A DNA stretch of 64,000 bases from Odontesthes bonariensis (lineage: Eukaryota; Chordata; Actinopteri; Atheriniformes; Atherinopsidae), in the NCBI RefSeq assembly GCF_027942865.1, contig NC_134509.1, positions 15,960,017 to 16,024,016 on the forward strand, written 5' to 3'. Positions within the stretch are counted from its first letter, which is position 1. Each line of letters opens with the position of its first letter. Below, piece by piece: positions 15,701 to 55,038 of the stretch. The notes beneath the pieces are model-generated. The model saw nothing but the letters and a program-made list of their open reading frames with translations. It searched no databases and was not told where the DNA came from. Both the position numbers and the translations under genes were made by a program.

Positions 15701-16989
15701 GGCAAGTTTATTTCCTTTTCATACATAATGTCCATTCAAAGGGTTTTATGTGAAGATTAGAAAGAGAAAACTTGCATAAAACCATTAAATGACTGAAGAG
15801 TGTCAAAATGCATAATGTATAAAAAGTCATTTTCATAAACATTTGTAGTAAAAGGGGATTTAAACGAGTTGATGGAAAAGAAATTGCACAGGAAAATGCA
15901 TAAAAGCAAAAACATGTCTGAGAGAAGTGTGCAGTTGTAAAAACTACTAAGTTCTGGGTCGAAGTGGTTCCAGCAGAGGGCGGCAGAATAACACACATAA
16001 TTTCACCTTGTTTGTTCTGAGCGCTCTGCTCCACCAGCTGACCAGTCACTGAAGGTCCGAGACTCTTTCCAGGGTTGTATTTCGTTAACATGTCTGAGAT
16101 ATATTGGGACCTGACCACTCAGAGTCCTGTGAACGATAACCAGGGTCTTAGATTCTGTTGTATATTCAGTTGGAAGCCAGTCCTAAGATCTTAGAGCAGG
16201 AGTGATGTGTGATCTTCCCCTGGTGCTTGTCAGCATTTTAAATTGGTCACAGATGTCTCATGTTCTTGGTTTGAAGCCCACTAAGAGTTTTGACACTTAG
16301 TTAAGACTTAAGTGTTTTGCAGTGATCAACCTTACAAGAAATAATGAGCGTTAGCTGGCTGGATAACTGGCGACAGCTCAGTTATCTCCCTGACAGACGA
16401 GTCGGCAACAGTTGGAGTCTTTGACATTCTTACATGCTCGTTTATCCCCAATCAAAGCTTATTAGATTTTGGGATTTGTGATGTCTCCTCTGGTATTATC
16501 AAGGTGTTTTGGTTAGTGTTGCAGAAAAAAATGTATCATCTGGTCTTCTTGGAGCCTCCACTGCTAACCCCGTGTCTTTATGTTCTATCCTGGGAATCAG
16601 TTTGTCCACCATTGGATGTTTCTCATTTGATGAAGTCATTTGCTCACTCTTGTGTATGATGCAGTGCTGATAAAATCAAGTCCTTAACACAACATATTGT
16701 GTAAATCATCTTCTTCCAGGAATCCGTTTCTTTTAAAGGAAGCCTAAAAGTGCAGACATCCAGGATTTGAGCATGGATGTTTGAATATCTGTAAATATTT
16801 CTTTGTTTTGGCAGAGAGTGGACCGGAGATCTGAAGAAACTTCCAAATATTAAAATGCGGAAAGTGTCAAATAAAGGTCTGGATGCAAAGAATGAAGCAG
16901 AAGAGGAAGATGATGATCTTGAGGAAGATGAGGATGATTTGGATGATGAGCAGGTAGATGAGAAGGTGCAGATGTCAGAAACTCACTGA
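12728..16989 (+). CDS. tma16: Translation machinery-associated protein 16 homologue
   Basis: Seven coding exons: 12728-12730 (ATG only), 12825-12925, 13305-13342, 13432-13516, 15347-15495, 15590-15632 and 16815-16989. All introns are GT-AG and the phases agree, giving 594 nt or 197 aa (human about 203). Landmarks: basic N-terminus [20 protein letters not shown], then [13 protein letters not shown], the [21 protein letters not shown] block, [10 protein letters not shown] and [10 protein letters not shown]. These match the vertebrate TMA16 family closely. The C-terminus is an acidic [12 protein letters not shown] tract. The family associates with pre-60S ribosomal particles in the nucleus. Exon 1 codes only the initiator methionine. 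Intron 4 carries a 1.1-kb repeat and a SINE. Human TMA16 is likewise next to MARCHF1. The assignment is firm. Confidence 0.96.
13705..14836. repeat. 1.1-kb inverted-ended repeat in tma16 intron 4, with two internal subunits
   Basis: The left end reads GCTGCAAGCAGCGATG then GGGGGTCCTAGCAG. The right end is the reverse complement, CTGCTAGGACCCCC, preceded by GCAGCTTCGC. Inside, a block of about 260 bp occurs twice (about 13884-14150 and 14334-14590). Both copies contain GCGGCTTGGTCT, TATGTGCCAAGT, TTCAAAATGGCGGAAAAT and CTCATTTGTGAAATTTGGAC. This is a common fish repeat type. No transposase is visible. Confidence 0.65.
14990..15250 (+). repeat. tRNA-derived SINE-like sequence
   Basis: GGTTCAGGTGATAGAG resembles a tRNA A box, and GGTGATTTGATTCC, 25 nt further on, resembles a B box. 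Between them is an anticodon-arm-like stretch. The body that follows (CTCATCTCTGTGTGATGGCA and onward) is not tRNA. It is degenerate and intronic, so unlikely to be a functional tRNA gene. Confidence 0.45.
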
Positions 16990-34861: not shown

Positions 34862-35194
34862 GGAGGCCCAGGGCCCATCAATAATTACCGTTAATATGAT
34901 CTCACTTGAACTTGAGAGGGGATATCAGCTCTTCACAGCTTTTACAAGAGTGTGACAAAGAGAGAGAGAGACAGAAAGATAGAGCGAAAGAGAGAGAGCG
35001 TGGTAAAGAGAGAACACAGTGGGTTTGACATGTGCTATGACACCGTTGTGTGAATGTCAGCATCTAAATGCTCCGGGAAACACTAGGTGAGTGTTCAACC
35101 TTGATTTTAATGCAGCATGGGATGAGGTCTAACCTTTGGAGATAAGGTAATCTTACTGATTTGACTTACAGCTGTGGCAGCGGATTAAAAGTAG

Positions 35195-35306
35195 ATGGCC
35201 ACTACTATAACTGAGCTCGAGAGTTTAACCATCATGTTCTCCATTCTGGTTTTTGCCCTCTTCACACTCATTGGGATGATTAACCAGGACTGCCCTTGCT
35301 TGAACG
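35195..35306 (+). CDS. SMIM31-like first coding exon (upstream copy)
   Basis: This exon codes 37 residues plus one base (phase 1) and ends at AACG|GTATGG. The peptide MATTITELESLTIMFSILVF... continues ALFTLIGMINQDCPCLN, a single membrane segment. It aligns without gaps to the smim31 exon at 43692-43803, which is exactly the same length and phase. Shared positions include M1, E9, I13, F20, L22, F23, L25 and Q31. Upstream, a likely non-coding exon ends CACTAG|GTGAGT at 35086, and an 85-bp intron ends TTACAG at 35171. I found no private second exon. Phase allows splicing into 43890, which would make it an alternative N-terminus of smim31. Otherwise it is a tandem paralogue whose second exon is missing or unrecognised. 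Confidence 0.65.
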
Positions 35307-35529
35307 GTATGGCTGCAAAACACACAAACTCAAAAGTCTAGTTCATATTTGATGTTTTTTTGTAATTTCCCTTTAGCTTTGTTACAATAATAAAGTATCT
35401 AGAACCAGATGTGATATATGAGAACATGACCTCATGATGAATTATGATGAACTTTTTGATCAAAAACTTGTATTCCACAGAAGGTAATACGAAAGTAACA
35501 AATCAAATGTTAACATTATCTTTTCATAA

Positions 35530-36114
35530 TTAGATGGATGTCAGCGACAGGTTTAAAAAAAGCTGGGGCAGGAGCATTTTAACCGTTGCTCCGTATGAAC
35601 TCTTCTTTTAACAACTGAGGGAGTAGAGGAGACCAATCGCTGTTGTTTTGAAAGTGAAATATTTTCCCATTGTTGCTTGATGTAAGATTTCAGCTACTCA
35701 GCGGTTAGAGAATTCCTTTGTCATATGTTTCTTTTCAATCCGCCAAATGTTTTCAGCAGGTCACAAGTCAGGTGACTGCAGGCAGAGCAGTTCAGCACCT
35801 AGATTATTTACTGCAGTCGTCTAATACACATTTGGGGAAAAATACACGTTTCGAGTTTTCGAGTTTGGTGTAGCATTTCTTCCTAAAATAAGCAAGACCT
35901 TCCCCCAAAGAAGATGCCACAGGACAGATTTCCACTTCATCTCAGACAATCTAAAAGGAATTTAGGTCCAGAGAAAGCAGAAGCATTTCCAGATGTTATT
36001 TTCATATTGTATGCTTTTTCTTTTGCGTGATCAAGTTTTGACTTGCATTTGTGCGGGCGGCAATAACCTATGTTCACCGGAAAATAGTTGAATTGTGTTA
36101 GTTTCCAATGTAGT
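35530..36114. repeat. Dispersed repeat fragment, class unknown
   Basis: The phrases GTCAGCGACAGGTTTAAAAA, AGCTGGGGCAGGAGCATTTT and GCCAAATGTTTTCAGCAGGT are typical of a repeated fish sequence. It borders an L2-like LINE piece at about 36115. No coding frame is supported. Confidence 0.4.
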
Positions 36115-36204
36115 GCTGTCTGAGGTTGATTGTATCAAATACAGCACTGAGATCCAACAGAACAAGCACAGACACAAGTCCGCTATTAGAGACCAAGAGG
36201 ACAT

Positions 36205-37506
36205 TAGGCGCATTCCCATTGTAGGAACCTTTTGCAGTTTCCTATAACCTTTTCAGGAACGGGGCCGTTTTTTCCCCGCATTCGGACATACAGGAATTAA
36301 GCCTGATTTATACTCAGAAACCAGGTCGTCTGCGTGTGTGTCGCAGTTAACGCAGACACTACGCAGACACTACGCAGACACTACGCAGACACTCTGGTGC
36401 ACCTCCTCAAAATTGTAACTCACCGCAGACAGTGCCGCAGACATCGCCGCAGGGAGGAGAGAAAGGAGGCCTCTGATTGGTCAACTCTACATCCGCTCTA
36501 CACTATGCGTATTTCCGGTTTGCTAACCGGCTGACGCTAACCGTGCTAACCGTGACGATTCTTTCGCCTCTCTGCCAGCTCCAGTAGTGGCAATATTTCT
36601 TCTATTTCTAGATCGATCAGCTGCATCTCAATCAAAGTGCGCATTCGTCCAGTCGCCATTGTTGTTGAATGACCTCCGTAACCGTAACACCCACAATCCT
36701 AGCTTGTTCATGATTGTCCCTCTTGCGTTGTGGCGTGGGATTAACATAGCGCAGACAGCGCTTCAAGGCATAAATCAAAAATAACTGCGTCGTGTCTGCG
36801 ACAAGCTCACTGCGACACACTGCTGCAAAGTATACACGAGCCTTTAGGGACCATGGCCCTCAGTTCCTGTAGTCATTTTAGCTCCTTCTCCGAGGCTGGG
36901 TCTTTTCTGGGTTCTATAGGAACACATCTGACGTAGGTGTTTGGTGGTTGGTAGCTACGCCCCATGTCAGATTTCCACTTCTTCATGTTCCTAATCTGCT
37001 CAACGCAAACAGTAGAATAAAGGCTGAAATGTTTACTCATACGACAGACTCAACCTGCGCGTGTTTAATAAGTTAAACTTACACGTCGTCTCCTTTGTCT
37101 GCGGCGCTCTGCTCTCCTTCCTGCATGAAACGAAGAAGTATCGCCTGAGCTCGATTCTTCGTCTCCTGACTCTCTCTGTGAGCTCTTCCAGCCTCGATGT
37201 TAGACGCCCGATGTGATCGTCCATGATTAATATCACCATCATGCAGACCATGAATACGATAGCTTCTTGGTGGTGTTTTTTTCTTCTCTCCTTACTTTTC
37301 GCGGATTTTGTTTTGTTTTGTTTTCTTGTTGAATGTGGCGCTAAAGTAACACGTCACTGTCGCAGACGGTTGCGTCGCATCAGTCCCTATCAAGGTCCCT
37401 ACTCATGTGCGAATGCAAACTGAAACAGTTCCCCTGGGGAAGGGCAGTGATCAGAACGGAATTCGAGGTGGACCGTTCTTAGAACTGCTCTGTCCGAATG
37501 CGGCTA
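36205..37506. mobile_element. DNA transposon with TAGSCGCATTC ends, inserted in the LINE
   Basis: The left end reads TAGGCGCATTCCCATT and the right end, on the other strand, TAGCCGCATTCGGACA. The inner sequence repeats the end motif (CCGCATTCGGACA at 36276 and 37491). It interrupts the LINE reverse transcriptase exactly between ALVKVT and the downstream SNSGL. It carries a nested MITE at 36300-36843. A short open frame on the minus strand (37033-37251) rich in Arg/Glu may be a remnant of its coding region. Confidence 0.6.
36300..36843. mobile_element. PIF/Harbinger-like MITE nested in the DNA transposon
   Basis: The ends are AGCCTGATTTATACT and, inverted, AGGCTCGTGTATACT. TTA flanks both sides (36297-36299 and 36844-36846), the 3-bp target duplication expected of PIF/Harbinger. 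Near the left end a 12-bp unit (CGCAGACACTA) is repeated about four times at 36352-36392. No transposase is encoded. Confidence 0.65.
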
Positions 37507-37928
37507 TAGGTAACTTTAACCAGTGCTGCTTCTGTGCTATGATGCACTGAATCCTGACTGAAACTCTTCAAACAGATTATTTCTGTGTAAATGATCAAAA
37601 GTATTTTATCAAGAACTTTAGACATAAAAGGGAGATTGGATATAGGTCGATAGTTAGCTAACACTTCTGAATCAAGAGTTGTTTTTTTTAAGTAAAGGTT
37701 TAATTACAGCAACCAGAAACAAAGACTGATTAAATCCAATATATAAATACTGATTAAGGAAAATCTCCTTGAACAATCTGGTTGGGATTGAGCCTAAACT
37801 ACATGTTTATGGTTTAGAAGAGACTATTGCTGTTTTTAGCTCAGAGAGTTCGACTGGACAACAGTCTAAATACAAATCAGGTTCTAAAGATACTTCTAAA
37901 GCTGCTATACTTGATTATACGTCAGGGA

Positions 37929-38012
37929 TTAAAGCAATACTATGTAACATTTCTACCTTAAAATAACAGCTTGAAAAAAATTGTGCCGCTAGAATGAGTT
38001 TTAATATTACGA
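37929..38012. mobile_element. Partial left end of a TTAA MITE
   Basis: TTAAAGCAATACTATGTAAC and the next roughly 60 bp match the left 84 bp of the complete MITE at 38524-38961 almost exactly. The match stops at ATTACG, where different sequence follows. It marks the left edge of the insertion in the LINE. Confidence 0.75.
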
Positions 38013-38072
38013 AAGCGAAAGATTGACAAAAAAAATCAATTTGAAACGTATACTGCTCTCTGGTGGAACATA

Positions 38073-38527
38073 TATAATTCATCACCGTTGGAGATATTTC
38101 TGAGGTCATGGTAGATAGATCAATTAATCAGGACTTGTTTCAAGGCTGAAACAAGTAATCATTAACAATTAACAATTATCCCGCTTTATGACATTTGAGA
38201 GCAGAGATTAGGCCTACTGTTGATTTACAACAATGTAAACATACTGTATATAATCCTGGATTATGAAACTAAAGCGAAAGATTGATAAAAAAAAAAACAA
38301 TTTGAAACGTATACTGCTCTCTGGTGGAACATGTATGTAATGATAATCGAGACAATATGTTCTTTTAAATTGTTAAAAATCTAATTTAGCTTTTAAAGGG
38401 AAGTTTGTATGAAATGACTTCCAGATACCGATTCTTGAGTATAACAGAACCGGACTGTTAACACACACATGCCAAGTGTGAAATTGATTTGATGGAAAGT
38501 CTTTATCAAGTCAAGAGAGTCATTTAA
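38073..38527. repeat. 455-bp direct repeat, copy 1
   Basis: Nearly identical to 42942-43396 at a constant offset of 4869 bp with no indels. I noticed only two substitutions (ATATGTTC/ATATATTC and TTGATTTGATGG/TTGATTGGATGG). Its right end falls exactly on the TTAA of the next MITE. Confidence 0.9.
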
Positions 38528-38961
38528 AGCAATACTTTGTAACATTTCTACCTTAAAATAACAGCTTGAAAAAAATTGTGCGGCTAGAATGAGTTTTAAT
38601 ATTACGATTGGCCTGTCTCCTATGCCCTTCGGGGGTCTGAGTTGGAAAAACTGCGCTATGTAACTTTGCTGGACCGGCCCGGGAGCTGAGCGGAAGTACT
38701 TCGACTTGCTTTCTGGCACACCTACCGCAAAAACAAATAGACCCTCTCACGCTCCCAGGTATAAGGCTAAGCTAGCGCAACATTGTCAGTATGATCATCA
38801 TGGCAGAGGCACCGAAGAAACAGAAGAAGTTGACTGATGAAGCAAGGAAGAGAAAGAGAGAGGCCGACAAAGCAAGAGACCGAACTAGAGTTGCTCTCGG
38901 AACAGCCTGTAGGGGGAGCTCCATAATGGGCTTTTTGAGGAGTTACATTGTATTGCTTTAA
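38524..38961 (+). mobile_element. Complete TTAA MITE with remnant coding start
   Basis: The ends are TTAAAGCAATACTTTGTAAC and, inverted, TTAAAGCAATACAATGTAAC. Inside, at about 38802, is ATGGCAGAGGCACCGAAGAA, which encodes MAEAPKKQKKLTDEARKRKR, a start seen in larger fish elements of this kind. The body is a deletion derivative. Its right TTAA is shared with the next element. Confidence 0.75.
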
Positions 38962-39530
38962 AGGGACACTATGTAATAAATTAAGTCATTTATTAGCTCA
39001 AATCAACATATTCATTCATAAGTTAGTCCTCATTGGTGTAAAATGATCTCTGTCAAAAATCTCACTTATCCTCCTGAGTGAAGAATAACTAGTCTGTATC
39101 TACATAGAGCAGGTAAGCTCTATGGAGGCTGCCATGTCCTTCCGGTCTATGAAAAATGACGAAGTGCCGAGAGGGACATAAAGCACTTCGAATCGCGATT
39201 TCCCCACCAGGCCTACAAGCAGAAATGACGTCATTGTGACGTCATTTCCGCCAAATGGCTTATTACAGCCGCTAATGCTAAATAGATTTTATTCCTTGGC
39301 ACATATGTCTTTGTGTTCATTAGCTTTCTTTTTGTAAGTGCATCATCTTCTTTTTATTATTATTCCTATGCTCCCCCTGGATATCTTCTTTTTGGCGTTA
39401 TGCTCACATTTGTAAACTGTTATTTTGTTGGGCTCGGGCACACGCGTTGCATTCTGGGATATGGTCGCCATATTGGAGGCACAATCTCGTAAACAAACCC
39501 TGAGGCAAGACAGAGATCAAGGAACAAACA

Positions 39531-39785
39531 GTGAGAGAAAAGCGAGAGAAAAGCATGTTAAAATCGAAGAAAGGATGTGGGATATACCGGGATACATTAC
39601 AGAAGGAAGCCAGAGATCGGTACATACAGAAGATTGGCGTTATAAACGGACTGGACCCTTATGAAATACCGAGCAAGGAATGGATTGTCGACGAAGATTT
39701 ACTGCCTAAATTCACCCTTTCGGACATAATTGCGTATGTAGTATGTGGTGTCAGTGCTTATACTTTGCAACAGTTTCAATTATAA
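39531..39785 (+). pseudogene. Transposon-encoded protein, N-terminal remnant
   Basis: The frame encodes RDTLQKEARDRYIQKIGVIN, then GLDPYEIPSKEWIVDEDLLP and TLSDIIAYVVCGVSAYTLQQ, and stops. The likely start is the ATG at 39555. This looks like the N-terminus of large uncharacterised proteins that accompany fish transposons. The remainder of that protein is absent, so the central part of the element has been lost. A plus AATAAA follows at 39823. Confidence 0.5.
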
Positions 39786-39882
39786 TGACACTTTACACTT
39801 TTGTCATGTTACTCTACTTGTAAATAAATAATGAAACACACACACTTGGCTGTATCTCAAAGCATATTTATTTCAGACGACT

Positions 39883-40492
39883 TCAACTTTGCACAACACT
39901 CCTGCTCATGGTGGTCAGAGTACAACATACAGACACAATCTTGTCAAAGAATGTTTTGTCTTCACCTTCGCATGGCAAAACTATGTTGATGGGTACTTTA
40001 GCTGACAAAAAGGTGTATTGTTTCTGACAGTTCCAATCGCCCTTTTCATGTGAATTTGGAGATGGGCAATTTTCCTTGTATTTTCCACATTAAATTAAGA
40101 TTAAGATCAGATTTATTGTCATGTATACATGCATACACACGAAATTTGTCCTCCGCTTTTAACCCATTGAGACGTCCCTTGCTTCCAACTGACAGTGTCC
40201 TCTTGTGAAGGCGGGGATCTTTACCTCAGCACACAAAAGTCTGTAACTTACCAGAATGAAAATGCAGAGAACACACTCTCATCGACACCGGGATTGAGTG
40301 GAAAGTTATGCTTGGTTGTCTTACAGCAGCGATCCATGCTAGTTGACGACGCTTTGTTATCTCGGACACTTGGTCTCCGTGGGTGCGCCTCCAAGCAGGA
40401 AACCGGTAAAAAGATAAACCATTTACGATTTCCCCCCCATTCCTGTCACGGCTTACGCTATTGCACCCCACGACACAGCAACGTGCGACCAT
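39883..40492 (-). pseudogene. THAP-domain transposase gene with internal deletion
   Basis: The first exon (40492-40252, 80 aa plus one base, donor CTG|GTAAGT) begins MVARCCVVGCNSVSRDRNGG and includes GLSFYRFP, RRQLAWIAAVR and MRVCSLHFHSG. This is the C2CH spacing and conserved Trp and Pro of a THAP zinc finger. The last exon (about 40077-39883) ends with VCCTLTTMSRSVVQS and a stop, just before AATAAA. Exons for a catalytic domain are missing between them, so the gene cannot make a full transposase. A THAP-only product is possible. Confidence 0.65.
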
Positions 40493-41590
40493 AGTGGCAA
40501 AGACAATAAGTAAAATAGATAAACCAACGAAGAAAGTTCCGAGACCAGGCGGGAGTACGTCTGCGCGCAGTGGAAAACAATGTAAACAAAACAGTTCTGA
40601 GCCTCCAGTATGGCCGCCGCTCACGTAGTGACGTCACGTGCCCGAGCCCTATTTACTAATAAAGTTTAAAAAAAAAAAAAAAATGCTAAATAGATTTTAT
40701 CTCGTAAATGATCCCACTAATAATGCATTGATTGTTACCAAACTTCTGCCGTAGTACACATAGGCTCTTAACTCACAAAACGAGGCATTAGAAAGTTTGT
40801 AAGTTTACCGGGAGTTTATTTACCGCTGCTAATGCTCCTATTGCTAACGCAGGCTAATGCTAACGCTGCGTCGACGTCACTTCCGGTAACTCCCGGAATA
40901 TGACTAATTGCATTGCTTGCACACCAAAGGAGATGTTATGTTATCTGACATGTTATCTGTCATCTGTATTCATAGTGTTGTTGTATGTGTGTTATATAAT
41001 CCTTTGTACTGTGTGTCTTGATTTCTTTTTGTTTGTATGGACCTTGAGTCTGAAGCTATAGCTTCTTGAATCTTGACACATTCCGCTTGCCGTAGTTCAA
41101 GAAGTTGCAGCGCACATTTGAAAACGTGAGGCGCTAGAGAGCAAATTCATTCAACCTTGCAAAATAAAATTGCACCACTAGATGGGGGAAGAAATTACAT
41201 AGTGTCCCTTTAATAGTGGGTCCATTAATCTTCTCTCTAACAGAAACTATTTTATTGGTGAAGAAGCTCATGAAATGATCCCCGCTGAGAGTTAAAGGAA
41301 TACACGGCACAACAGTGCTCAGACCCCTTGTCAGCTTGACTACAGTGCTGAAAAGAAACCTGGGATTGTTCTTATTCTCTATCAATGATGAATAATAAGC
41401 AGTTCTAGCTTAGCAAAGGGCTTTTTTCGTTGTTATAAGACTATATCTCCAGACTAATTGAGATTCCTCCAAGTTAGGGGAACTCCATTTTCTTTACATC
41501 TTCTTTTTGTAAACTGCTTCAGATTCTACTTTTAGCATCTGTGAATTAAACCAAGGAGCCCGCCTCTTCTGAGCAATTAACATCTTAAAT

Positions 41591-42941
41591 GAACAGCAGC
41601 TCAAAATAATTGATCATCATTAACTTAACCACACTTAACCATAACCATATACATGAAGGTCTATTTGTGACCTTTGCAACAGCCTGAATGAATGAGCCTA
41701 CAATCAGTGAGAAATAAATAAACCATTCATAAAACAGAACTCTGTAAATAATTTATTTCTATACACTAATCTTTGCATTATGATTATTAATGACATCCTG
41801 AATAAAAATTACTTATTTTTCATCATCTACACTATTTTTTTAAAAACATGTAACGTTGTTTTAATGGCACTTGATTTGTGGGGAAAAAAAGAACAGTAAA
41901 TTATCTTCTTCTGTAATGTCATTTTATCTTCTGCAGAATCGAATGTAAAACCACAAAATGAGGAGCTGTTGGTGTGACGAGGCTGATGACTAAGACTGAC
42001 ACTTCAGTGGGCAACAGTGTAATCTTATATTGGTGTCTTTTGAGAAAGCTTTGTGTGTCACACTCGGTTTCTATTAGATCCCTGAACAGAGTCTTACAGG
42101 CTGACCTCTGAACATATGTGTGTGTATGCTGTGTTATAGAATGTAGTGTTACAGTACATGCTTCAAGGCACAAAGAGGCACAAAGGAGTGGCCTACATTG
42201 TAAAAATAAGATCAATAAAGAAAGACCTGTTTCAACAAACTGCCACACGACAGTACCTCGTGCCTGACATCTTTCACTCCTCTTTGTTTGGATATAAAAA
42301 CACAAAGAAGTGCTTTTCTTTTTTTTAACTTCAAACTTGGGAACAGCTTCTGTTATTCTACCTCCGGTAAGTCTTAAAACCTCAGACCTGTTAAAAACTA
42401 GGTCAGAAACAAAAAGGTGCGCTGGTAGGATTAGGGCGAGCTTTTAAATTACTGTGCCAGTATGAGACGTGTGACTCACTATAGTCAGGGATCAAAGGTT
42501 GGAGCTATATAAACTATTACATACAGCAGCAAGAAAAGTGTGTTAAAAACAGGCCATCAATGTTTGACCATAATCAAATGAAACAGTGAAACATTTATTT
42601 CAAACAGACATGAAAATCAGTCAAAAGATCATGTTTATTCACACTACAGTTCTCCTAAACATTTGTCTTGTTATCATAAGATTGCTTATATAGGATTTCA
42701 CACTTAGGTGACTCCATGCTACAAACTAAAAACTGATTTCGATTTTGAGTGCAGAGGGTTTGTACCATGAAAAAAATGAAGGATTTATTGATTTATTCAT
42801 AAAGTTTGCAAAATGTTTCCAAGAAGTCGTGCGCCTTCTCTTCCTTCTTTGATTTCATCACTGTTTAATTCATGTGAGCCCATCCTTCAGTTTCAGCTTG
42901 TCTCTAACACTGTGATACCACTGCACATTTCTGAACTTCGC
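41591..42941. other. smim31 upstream intronic/intergenic DNA, nothing supported
   Basis: AT-rich sequence with short open frames on both strands (for example 41919-42305 minus). None shows a domain, splice structure or codon bias I would trust. Confidence 0.4.
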
Positions 42942-43396
42942 TATAATTCATCACCGTTGGAGATATTTCTGAGGTCATGGTAGATAGATCAATTAATCAG
43001 GACTTGTTTCAAGGCTGAAACAAGTAATCATTAACAATTAACAATTATCCCGCTTTATGACATTTGAGAGCAGAGATTAGGCCTACTGTTGATTTACAAC
43101 AATGTAAACATACTGTATATAATCCTGGATTATGAAACTAAAGCGAAAGATTGATAAAAAAAAAAACAATTTGAAACGTATACTGCTCTCTGGTGGAACA
43201 TGTATGTAATGATAATCGAGACAATATATTCTTTTAAATTGTTAAAAATCTAATTTAGCTTTTAAAGGGAAGTTTGTATGAAATGACTTCCAGATACCGA
43301 TTCTTGAGTATAACAGAACCGGACTGTTAACACACACATGCCAAGTGTGAAATTGATTGGATGGAAAGTCTTTATCAAGTCAAGAGAGTCATTTAA
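42942..43396. repeat. 455-bp direct repeat, copy 2
   Basis: Partner of 38073-38527. It also ends in TTAA. Here the TTAA is followed by TGTGCCTTGATATGAC and ATTTGGGTACTATATAAACA, which looks like the 3' tail of a fish LINE in plus orientation. Confidence 0.9.
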
Positions 43397-43691
43397 TGTG
43401 CCTTGATATGACTTTTGTTGCAATTTGGGTACTATATAAACAAATTAAACTGAGACAAATTCTAATAAATGTGTTTTGAACACATCATAGACAAAAAATA
43501 AAAATGAAGTGTTCATGTTCCAACAGTATCTTATATCTTGTATATCCTGTATTTGCAGATGTAAAATATCTTTTTTGTGAGGTGGTGAAAAGATAACGTT
43601 TTGCAATTTGTTAGCAAATTGTCATTTCTGGATCTTAATGTGGGGATGTTACACTCTTTACCTGCATGCTTTGTGTTGGATAGTTGTGTAG

Positions 43692-43975
43692 ATGGAAGTG
43701 CCATTCAATGGCTTTGAGCTGACCTTCATCATCATAGCCTTCGTCATCTTCTCCCTCTTCAGTCTGGCCTCAGTCTGCATTCAGCCACAAGATGCCCAGC
43801 CAGGTACAGTAAACCGTCATCCTCTGTTTCCAGACATGCAGCGACATATGTCTGCATCTCTAATGCAGCTTGTGTTTTTACTCTTTTAGAGGAAGCTGAT
43901 TATGACGTCATGAAGTCACGACCATCAAACAGGAAGCAGAGAGTGATCAACAAACAAGCCAGACAGAAAACATAA
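43692..43975 (+). CDS. smim31: Small integral membrane protein 31 homologue
   Basis: Two coding exons, 43692-43803 and 43890-43975, split in phase 1 by an 86-bp intron (CAG|GTACAG to CTTTTAG). The product is 65 aa (human about 71). MEVPFNGFELTFIIIAFVIF followed by SLFSLAS is a single hydrophobic helix that matches human SMIM31 closely (MELPF...AFVIFSLFTLAS). A short acidic hinge EEADYD and a basic tail NRKQRVINKQARQKT follow. The ATG stands right after a GTGTAG acceptor, so a 5' non-coding exon is expected upstream. Cellular function is unknown. It lies between marchf1 and apela, as in human. Poly(A) signals are at 44154 and 44161. Confidence 0.9.
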
Positions 43976-49402: not shown

Positions 49403-51237
49403 ATGAGGGTTTTCAACCTGTTCTATCTGTTCCTGCTGATCGTAGCTACTGCAGCACCCATCTTCTCGGCCAGGCCAGGTAAGCGTCCTAAAACTTCTTC
49501 GTAAAGGCAGGTGTCCCTTACAAAGACAGAAAAAATAACCAAAGTGTCACCAAGGTTCTCCTTTAAAAAGTCGGCTGCACAATTTACTTATACTTATGAC
49601 AGAGAGGACTTAGTCATGATAAATAACTTAAACAGACTTCAAGGATCACTGCGCATATTCCGTTAAACTGTTTGTAACCATAGCAACAAGATAACGTTTC
49701 TTCCCAGGAAGACTTACACTTTTAATTGTAAAAAAAAAAAAGAAAAGATTTTCGCAGAAAAGCGGGTAAACCTGGCTTTAACTGTAAATTCAAATTAAAA
49801 ATACATTTTTACCCTTGCTTTCAGTAAATGTAAAGGGCAAAAAAATACCGAGGAAAAGTAACGGTTCCTCAACCGTTGCGTTGCGCGTCTTGTCGTAGAA
49901 ACGGCAAAACTGCAAAGTGTTATCAATTTAAAAATACAGTTTTCATTACATTTCATTAAACCCTAATGAAAGGCAAATTAAATTTACGCAGATGCGGGAT
50001 TTTGTTTCCCTTTAATACGGAAGAGTATTAGGGCCAGGCATAAGAAAACATATTTATATTTTGCCTGTCGAGAATAAAGTAATAGATGATGGACCAGAGG
50101 AGTTGACTTTTTTCTCGACATGTGGACTTTATTCTCGACATGTGGACTTTATTCTCGACATGTGGACTTTATTCTCGACATGTGGACTTTAATCTCGACA
50201 GGCAAAATTTTATTATTTTTTCTTATGCCTGGCCCTAATACTCTTCCGTAGGCCTACTTTAAATAAAGAATAATGAATTTATTTATTTTTTTGCCTAAAT
50301 CCAGGGTGGCTCGTGATTATCTCCAAGACAAACAGCTGTTGTTCACGAGGGAGGGTTTAGGCACGATGTGATGCGTTATACGTGATGTTGGTGAGGAGAG
50401 GATGAAGGGAGGCAGAGAGGAAGGGAGGCAGAGAGGACGGGAGGTGACGGCAGCAGAGCGCCGCCGGGGATCGCACAGCAACCACAGGACGACCCCTTTG
50501 TCCACGGCTAGAAGGCGCTCCGGCGGGCTTTTGTTAAACACGGTGTTAAAACGCCATGCAAATACCGAGGTTTATTAACATGACATGGAGCAGTGGTGCC
50601 AAGTGTAAAGAAGCGTACCTCCAGGCGTGGGGGGCAGAGGAACCCGGGGTGGCCCGGAGGGGGTCATAAAGTCATCTGGCAGTTTATCTCTTCCTGGGCT
50701 TTGCTAGTATGTGAACGGGAGTCAAGGGTGGATTTATTGGGGGTCGATTAAAAATAATCATGTGTTAGGTTCGTGTGTCCCGGTCTGTCCCAGCTGTTTG
50801 TAAATGGGACCAAACAATAAAACTTGAAAGTGGTCAAGGGAGGTTAAGCAGCGCCGTAATTAAGATATAGTTATATCACAGGAGGTAGCTTTATCTCCAC
50901 CACCCCCCCATACCAAAGGATAGTTTTATTTCATGTTAGTAATGTTAATCTCTCCTTTTTGATCAATTAGGTCTGCCCCATAATGTGTGTGCCCCCACCG
51001 GGGAACATAAAATCCTGCTTTGAAGAACTTTTGCATCTAAAGCTTCACTAATCAGCAGCCAATATGTCTGATAGCAGTCTAATTTAGGTCGCCATAATCT
51101 ATGTTTTGTAAACCACAATGTACTAATTACAACCTGTCTTCATTTCAGATTTCTTGAATCTGAGGAGAAAATACCACAGACATTCCTGCCCACACAGACG
51201 TTGCTTGCCCCTTCACTCAAGAGTACCCTTCCCCTAA
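49403..51237 (+). CDS. apela: Apelin receptor early endogenous ligand (Elabela/Toddler)
   Basis: Two coding exons, 49403-49478 and 51149-51237 (phase 1; CCAG|GTAAGC donor, TTTCAG acceptor), give 54 aa, the same length as human. MRVFNLFYLFLLIVATAAPI followed by FSA is a signal peptide. The mature part DFLNLRRKYHRHSCPHRRC then LPLHSRVPFP keeps the invariant C-terminus, two cysteines and dibasic sites of the hormone. It acts extracellularly on the apelin receptor in gastrulation and heart formation. The exon with the stop ends one base later at a GTAAAA donor, and a probable 3' UTR exon begins at 51560 after ATTACAG. AATAAA is at 52030. Intron 1 carries a MITE with an internal minisatellite. The assignment is firm. 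Confidence 0.97.
50016..50250. mobile_element. MITE with internal 20-bp minisatellite in apela intron 1
   Basis: The terminal inverted repeats begin TACGGAAGAGTATTAGGGCC and end with the complement. About 55 bp match, including GCCTGTCGAGA. The core is about four tandem copies of TTCTCGACATGTGGACTTTA (about 50110-50192). TA may be the duplicated target. No coding capacity. Confidence 0.8.
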
Positions 51238-53126: not shown

Positions 53127-55038
53127 TTAGTGCTGAGCAGTTAGGTTGAGCAGCCTCCTGCTTAGCAATGTGTTGTGCTGTTTCAGGTACTCTATCAGGT
53201 CGGCCTGCTTCTCCACCACCTCCTCCAGACTGGAGGACCCTCTGTAAAGTAAATAAAAGCACATACGAGTGATGCAAGCAGTTATGGACACTAATGCACA
53301 ATGCTCAGCCTCACATTTGCAACTGTGCAGATGTATTCGGTTCTCTAAATGAAGTTCAACAAATGTGTTTTTCTTATGCTGGAGACGTAAACCAGAGCAA
53401 ATCATTGTTGCTTTCAACTGTGATTAGTTGAAATATACAGTGAGAGTTGGGGTTAGGCCGTCATTTGCCGACCGAATGCCACCATACAAGCGCAGCAGGG
53501 GAATCAAAATATTAAACATAGGACATCCAACGTTTAATGTTCTGGACTGTGTGAGAAAAGAAGTCTGACACACTGTGACGCTCTAACCTTCTCTGTGCAC
53601 TGCTCAGACATCGTCTTTAAGATACTCGAACAGTGATTTTGTCAGATCACACTGCAATGAGAACTTTAAGATTTTAATTAGAGCAGAGTGACAATGTAAC
53701 CGCCTGGAAACGCTTCTGCCGACAATGAGTTGACGCCTCGTCTCAATAGGCTGATGATTTTCAGCCACAATTTCTGAGCAAAATCTCACGCAGTTGCTCA
53801 GCTGAGACTGTGAGAGCCCTAGCTTATGATTCCCATCCTTTTCACGCTTGTGAAATTATTCAGTCGACGTGTTTTCGTTTGTCTGTTCTAGTAGAAACAA
53901 GCTAATGAGAATTAGACCAAATCTAGCCAGTTTAGGTTCGGAAAACAATACTTCATGATGGCACTGAATTGATTGATTTAAAAAAAGATGCTGGCTAAAA
54001 GGCAAAATTATCGAGGACACTTAAGATCTCAGTGTTTTAATGGCGTGTTGCTGAAGCTGTACTGTTAAAGCTACTGAACTTAGAGGTTTGCAGAAAGAAA
54101 ACAAATCAAACAATGGCTAAACTTTTGTTGATGGACTCTTTCGGTAAATTAGTGTACCTGAAGCCGGTCTCAGTTGGTACGCTGGTGACACTGTAGGTGT
54201 GTGAAAGCTCTTCTTGGCTCACGTCGGGTGCAGCTCTCGCTCTGTTGAACTGCATCACTTTGACTGGAAAGACACACAGACACACTGGCTCTTATTTTAC
54301 AAAATCATCAAATACAGGTTTTAGGTAGATGGTGGCGCATAAATACACACAGACACTATGGAGTAGTGAAAGCTTTCGACCAATTGTATTCACCAAGGTG
54401 AGAAATGGCACACGTTTGTTTTTTTTTTGTTTTTTTAACTGTTTTCCATCCCTCTCCCTCTCCTAAACACACACACAAGCAGTTATATCCTCCACTCAGT
54501 GCTCGAGGCTGCCATATCCTGCACTCAAACCTTTAATTCTCACACCTTAAACATACACCTTTACACATGGGGTGGGGCTGGCAGCAAAGTGTGTGTGTGT
54601 GTGGGCTGTTGCAGCAAGATGAGTCAGAGTCAGAACACATCCTGGCTCTGTCTGCACTGTAATGAGGCCATGGATTTCGGATACTGGGTAAGTGTGTGAG
54701 GAAGAGCTGAGGGAGTCGCTGCCTCAGTGTTGATAAGACTCGAGTGTCATTAGCCAGAGGAAATTGTCAGGGAGGCTCTAAGAAGTGCCGTCTTTACTTT
54801 GCTACAGTTCAGCATCCAAGCCTCCACACACTCACACAATCCAAAGAAATACTGCACATTCCTGCATAATGAGGCCCTAAATCTGTGTGTGTTTGTGTGT
54901 GTGTAAATAAAGCAATAGCAGGCAAGTATGTGTGAGAAAGAAACATTCCTGGAAAGCAGTGAAATTGAGTAAAGCAGAAAAGGATGAGCCTGTTTGAATA
55001 GTGTTTGTTGTAGAAAATGACAAGTCAAAAAGGCATAT

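Follow-up and report, generated by a model that had tools for sequence, protein, structure and literature searches.

Two exons of the SMIM31 type, 8.5 kb apart, are found in a stretch of 64,000 nucleotides from the genome of the fish Odontesthes bonariensis (contig NC_134509.1, positions 15,960,017 to 16,024,016; this 64-kb stretch, numbered from its first letter, is called the window below). The downstream exon is the first coding exon of the gene smim31. The upstream exon, whose coding part spans 35195-35306, is very probably SMIM31-derived, and we tentatively read it, with somewhat less than even confidence, as part of an old tandem SMIM31-type duplicate that would have its own transcript and its own 3' end.

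Likeness of the two exons

The coding part of the upstream exon (+ strand) measures 112 nt, starts at an ATG, encodes 37 residues arranged around one helix (MATTITELESLTIMFSILVFALFTLIGMINQDCPCLN) and ends in phase 1, followed by GTATGG. The first coding exon of smim31 (43692..43803, + strand) also measures 112 nt, starts at an ATG, and ends in phase 1 at a GT after 37 residues (MEVPFNGFELTFIIIAFVIFSLFSLASVCIQPQDAQP). Coordinates, donors and translations are as given in a preliminary description of the locus, and so is the gapless alignment of the two 37-mers: compared ungapped, they are identical at 8 of 37 positions (M1, E9, I13, F20, L22, F23, L25, Q31) and score 25 under BLOSUM62. Among the 25 offsets tried, offset 0 does best, both against smim31 and against the presumed N-terminus of human SMIM31, whose letters matched nothing in a literature search. 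Hydropathy peaks at 2.57 from residue 11 in the upstream exon, and at 2.81 from residue 12 in smim31. Pairwise BLASTP of the upstream against the downstream product gives an E value of 0.010 over residues 1-25. The trait of the SMIM31 family, a similar helix exon of equal length and phase, is present in the upstream exon, though weak in absolute terms (8/37).

In global shuffles, the score of 25 between the exons was reached with p 0.0003. The upstream exon and the presumed human sequence have 10/37 identical residues and a score of 37, with p 0.0001 in global shuffles and 0.0027 in shuffles made within segments. The window contains 369 ATG windows of 37 open codons, 30 of which have a GT at +112; among the 369, as among the 1,614 such windows in 264 kb, the upstream exon is the top match to smim31 after smim31 itself. 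Similarity alone is weak evidence, because a chance-looking open reading frame (ORF) at 15836(-) scores 20 against smim31. Significance comes from similarity combined with a donor at the corresponding site. The null model was 60 Mb of sequence simulated by a third-order Markov process, with 161,480 ATG windows: a score of at least 25 is found in 10, and 171 carry at +112 a donor of at least equal strength (splice scores rest on textbook frequencies); no window combines the two, and none reaches 37 against the presumed human SMIM31. A smaller first simulation, of 6 Mb, had yielded a score of 25 in 1/16,371 windows, and in a second 60-Mb simulation none of 1,039 ORFs with a similarly located helix reached it.

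G+C at codon positions 1, 2 and 3 is 0.35, 0.35 and 0.65 in the upstream exon, against about 0.38-0.41 in the flanks, and 0.51, 0.32 and 0.68 in smim31, so that the excess at the third position (GC3) is similar in the two. When the average of positions 1 and 2 is subtracted from GC3, the upstream exon ranks among the top 2.2% of these 1,614 windows. As evidence of coding, base composition is supportive, not decisive. The homology of the exons, claimed in the preliminary description, is thus backed by the statistics of one genome and by a coding-like composition. The same description took agreement with human SMIM31 at L8 and T24 as a sign of old duplication; by inspection, the upstream exon alone agrees with the presumed human sequence at three positions (T6, L8, T24), against one (Q31) for the downstream exon alone, which is too weak and proves nothing about age.

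Putative transcription units

The upstream SMIM31-type exon, taken as a whole, would span 35172..35306 (+ strand), and would be preceded by a putative 5' non-coding exon at 34961..35086 (+ strand), for which 34961 is an arbitrary 5' limit. The donor (TAG/GTGAGT at 35087) scores 10.67, and sites equal or stronger occur at 0.19 per kb. The putative intron (35087-35171) measures 85 bp and closes at an ordinary acceptor at 35172 (score 6.11; 3.9 per kb are at least as strong). Donor, intron and acceptor had been proposed before, and are all present as sequence. Four upstream ATGs (35030, 35037, 35054, 35068), none in the main frame, are found in the putative 5' exon, if the exon is assumed to reach 35030. 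Use of the donor at 35307 can be inferred rather than read from the frame, because the frame opened at 35195 also stays open unspliced, for 48 codons, up to a stop codon at 35339-35341.

A candidate promoter and 5' non-coding exon of smim31 were located at 42293..42366 (+ strand), made by a TATAAAA at 42293, one of 10 TATA sites listed in the 34.0-43.7 kb interval, and a donor (CCG/GTAAGT) at 42367, which scores 11.1. The acceptors beside the smim31 ATG are weak (43684 scores 2.8, 43692 scores 1.5), and a better one is found at 43559 (7.2). Because smim31 has a candidate promoter of its own, the upstream exon and smim31 are likely to be two transcription units. The preliminary description had left the choice between two promoters serving one tail and a tandem paralogue; the candidate promoter (42293/42367) supports two units, and one genome does not separate these options.

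Several 3' ends may be drawn for the upstream unit. A candidate local terminal exon (35377..35410, + strand; its end is a guess) lies beyond a 70-bp intron and would add ALLQ and a stop; its acceptor scores 6.4, which 3.9 sites per kb equal or exceed, and the AATAAA at 35389 would serve this exon and the unspliced 48-codon frame alike. A further in-phase acceptor candidate, at 35481, would add 17 residues. The candidate own terminal exon at 41937..42235 (+ strand; its end, too, is a guess) would add ESNVKPQNEELLV and a stop, has an AATAAA at 42214, lies inside a single-copy stretch (41700-42930), and opens at an acceptor scoring 10.4 (0.35 per kb are at least as strong). The smim31 tail at 43890 is in phase with the upstream exon as well. 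Score alone cannot choose the 3' exon, because other acceptors, such as 36579 (11.3), match or beat these candidates; nor do the AATAAA signals at 35389 and 42214 decide anything, since this motif is frequent (1.0 per kb per strand).

Origin of the upstream exon

The genome searched amounts to 945 Mb in 187 contigs. The DNA of the upstream exon finds only itself there, in a search that skips very common words. No third smim31-like locus was found in protein and DNA searches of the same genome, in which each exon finds only itself; these searches are insensitive, as the upstream protein failed to retrieve the downstream exon. Genome-wide, 227 matches to a residue-core pattern were obtained, against 187 for a reversed control. 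Two of the 100 matches listed are the window's own exons, and 21 correspond to a common repeat word, TGCTGGTTTTTGCCCTTTTTTGATT, which in L006 (1084-1108) lies inside a longer, partly doubled unit. Seven of the other 98, chosen by eye for closest resemblance, were inspected. The one at C12:36734887 has an identical residue core, and was rejected as it has no ATG and a stop 13 codons ahead of the core; the remaining six were rejected for having neither ATG nor GT at the proper offsets.

That the upstream exon is a chance ORF, or the exon of an unrelated membrane microprotein resembling smim31, is decidedly unlikely. A chance-looking ORF of the same window does score 20, against 25 for the upstream exon, and part of the exon, CTGGTTTTTGCCCT, matches the common repeat word, with a 14-nt word common to both and a best local score against one repeat copy that is reached by 6/200 shuffles. 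Score and donor together are absent, however, from 60 Mb of null sequence, and the seven other core-sharing places inspected lack an ATG at the proper offset, the six tested for it also the GT. The match to the repeat copy ends after 30 nt without extension and the exon DNA matches only itself, for which reasons an origin of the exon from the repeat was rejected.

One smim31 gene with two promoters is possible, but on the unlikely side. The upstream exon would be spliced to the tail at 43890, skipping the exon at 43692, so that one cytoplasmic tail would carry either of two N-termini, each with its helix. As both exons end in phase 1, either can join the tail in frame, although equal phase is expected from duplication alone, too. 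The acceptor at 43890 is strong (8.46). Charge also speaks for the shared tail: the N side of the upstream exon has a charge of -2, and among the five products written out the one with the shared tail, whose C side has +3, shows the most SMIM31-like charge pattern, the others having C-side charges of -1, -1, -3 and +1, the last being that of the unspliced frame. The gap of 8.5 kb is partly filled by repeats and by an ORF with a THAP domain, so the ancestral spacing may have been smaller. Against this, the transcript must skip the smim31 exon and read past AATAAA signals, those at 35389 and 42214 included, and smim31 has its own candidate promoter. Somewhat less probable still is a fish SMIM31 which is two-headed: two alternative promoters of ancient origin, each with a first coding exon, would provide two helices for one shared cytoplasmic tail, the exons having diverged until they are hardly recognisable as related. 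Such an arrangement might be older than the separation of fishes and tetrapods.

The least probable of the explanations considered is a relic: the exon would stem from a true, old duplication, be dead or dying, and have lost its tail. The local acceptor at 35377 runs to a stop after four codons, and repeats start about 320 bp downstream of the exon, as would fit decay. At 8/37 identity, however, loss of the ATG, the frame, the helix or the donor would be expected of an unconstrained copy; the exon retains all four, and its GC3 remains coding-like. If the exons are homologous, strong divergence with these features kept suggests selection.

Some observations weigh against an old duplicate with its own transcript and 3' end. 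Only 8/37 residues are common to the two exons; shuffles within segments, which keep the compositions of N-side, helix and C-side, raise the p value of their similarity to 0.007; and 2/443 hydrophobic simulated windows, preselected for scores > -10, reach 25. At the DNA level, comparison of the two exon neighbourhoods gives 31.5, within the range of 50 shuffles (maximum 35.5). By GC3 alone, the upstream exon ranks no higher than the top 6.7% of 1,614 windows; of 69 transmembrane-like windows, 10 equal or exceed its GC3, and 9 do so for the difference between GC3 and GC2. The 35037 frame, of 30 codons, overlaps the main ATG in another frame, and would hamper translation. A tail search of the 35.36-43.89 kb interval (acceptors scoring at least 4, frames of 12-120 codons) found no tail like that of smim31 among the 48 candidates scored, 45 of which were shown, apart from the smim31 tail itself, a result which also fits the relic; and no own-tail candidate gives a basic C side as in smim31.

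Under the preferred reading, that of a tandem duplicate with its own 3' end, the upstream exon would be a genuine duplicate, old and much changed, of the smim31 exon that codes for the transmembrane part. The unit would start with a 5' non-coding exon, spliced across 85 bp to the ATG exon, and would end ahead of the candidate smim31 promoter located at about 42.3 kb. Its predicted product, of about 41-54 residues, would have an acidic N-terminus and a single helix, and would be a second microprotein that crosses the membrane once. Transcription of this unit, use of the donor at 35307, the 3' end, the protein and its function are all predicted from sequence.

smim31, its surroundings and SMIM31 in other species

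The coding sequence (CDS) of smim31 is made by two coding exons, as indicated by an open frame across canonical splice motifs. The tail exon (43890..43975, + strand; acceptor score 8.46) encodes EEADYDVMKSRPSNRKQRVINKQARQKT, followed by a stop; the join 43803/43890 is in frame, 65 codons are open up to 43975, and the product measures 65 aa (MEVPFNGFELTFIIIAFVIFSLFSLASVCIQPQDAQPEEADYDVMKSRPSNRKQRVINKQARQKT). Its N-terminal 37 residues include 19 identical to the presumed human SMIM31, with a score of 105 attained by 0/20,000 shuffles of either kind. The C-terminus of the gene apela, at 51196(+) between smim31 and tmem192, reads CPHRRCLPLHSRVPFP, followed by a stop; the call rests on what we take to be the conserved C-terminal motif of the peptide hormone. 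tmem192 was recognised by a PF14802 match at 53130-53423(-), with E 7.1e-13. apela and tmem192 as neighbours of smim31 fit what we assume to be the gene order in human. The location beside apela and tmem192 fits the identification of the downstream gene as smim31, which was made by comparison with the presumed human sequence. Pfam gave no SMIM31 match: neither 37-mer matches any family, and the 65-aa product yields sub-threshold noise only. On the marchf1 side, where Pfam was the only check, no RING match was found among 10 chosen ORFs. Rfam gave 0 matches across the window at gathering scores.

Repeats of different types reside between the two exons. At 74%, the segment 35630-35816 is similar to one place on C7; between 36120 and 36204, stretches have matches of 86-93% at 38/40 listed places. 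An 11-bp unit, ACGCAGACACT, is found in four perfect tandem copies at 36350-36393. The ORF with a THAP domain (40229-40633(-); Pfam E 8.1e-10) is probably part of a mobile element. A direct repeat of 455 bp (38073-38527 and 42942-43396), whose copies lie 4,869 bp apart and differ by two mismatches, reflects either recent local copying or an assembly overlap; when the genome was searched with the downstream copy, no other complete copy was retrieved, and one of the two copies sits between two copies of an 84-nt repeat.

Human SMIM31 is, we presume, the gene also called LINC01207. The upstream exon resembles SMIM31 in having a single helix near the N-terminus and an acidic N-side, and differs in matching the presumed human protein at only 10/37 positions, against 19/37 for the downstream gene, which adjoins apela and tmem192, and in having no recognised tail. 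As in tandem duplicates and alternative first exons generally, the two exons are arranged head-to-tail on one strand, with equal length and intron phase. In contrast to usual tandem duplicates, identity is very low for neighbours 8.5 kb apart, which suggests age or fast change; the upstream exon may therefore be old or fast-evolving, not a recent tandem copy.

According to PMC6886504, SMIM31 was newly recognised as a coding gene in 2019, having earlier been annotated as a long non-coding RNA, its CDS of 71 aa includes, in human, a second coding exon and is conserved to coelacanth, and transcription is high in gastrointestinal tissue. The mouse SMIM31 peptide, called EPRp (EPR/BC030870), localises to epithelial junctions, as reported in PMC6488594. 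A second SMIM31 copy is not mentioned in the available parts of these two SMIM31 papers (PMC6886504, PMC6488594), and a literature search found nothing joining small integral membrane protein, zebrafish, micropeptide and tandem duplication. Since EPRp is reported at epithelial junctions (PMC6488594), the likeliest function of the predicted upstream product would be a membrane role similar to that of EPRp, by analogy, in another tissue or stage. The role of EPRp at these junctions is itself hardly known.

The upstream exon would otherwise be an ordinary duplicate. If real, such a second copy or N-terminus would represent a microprotein that is easy to overlook, and the two exons would offer a natural contrast on which residues of the helix matter. 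Were SMIM31 two-headed, one microprotein gene would yield two membrane anchors. In sum, two versions of the SMIM31 protein may be made by this animal.

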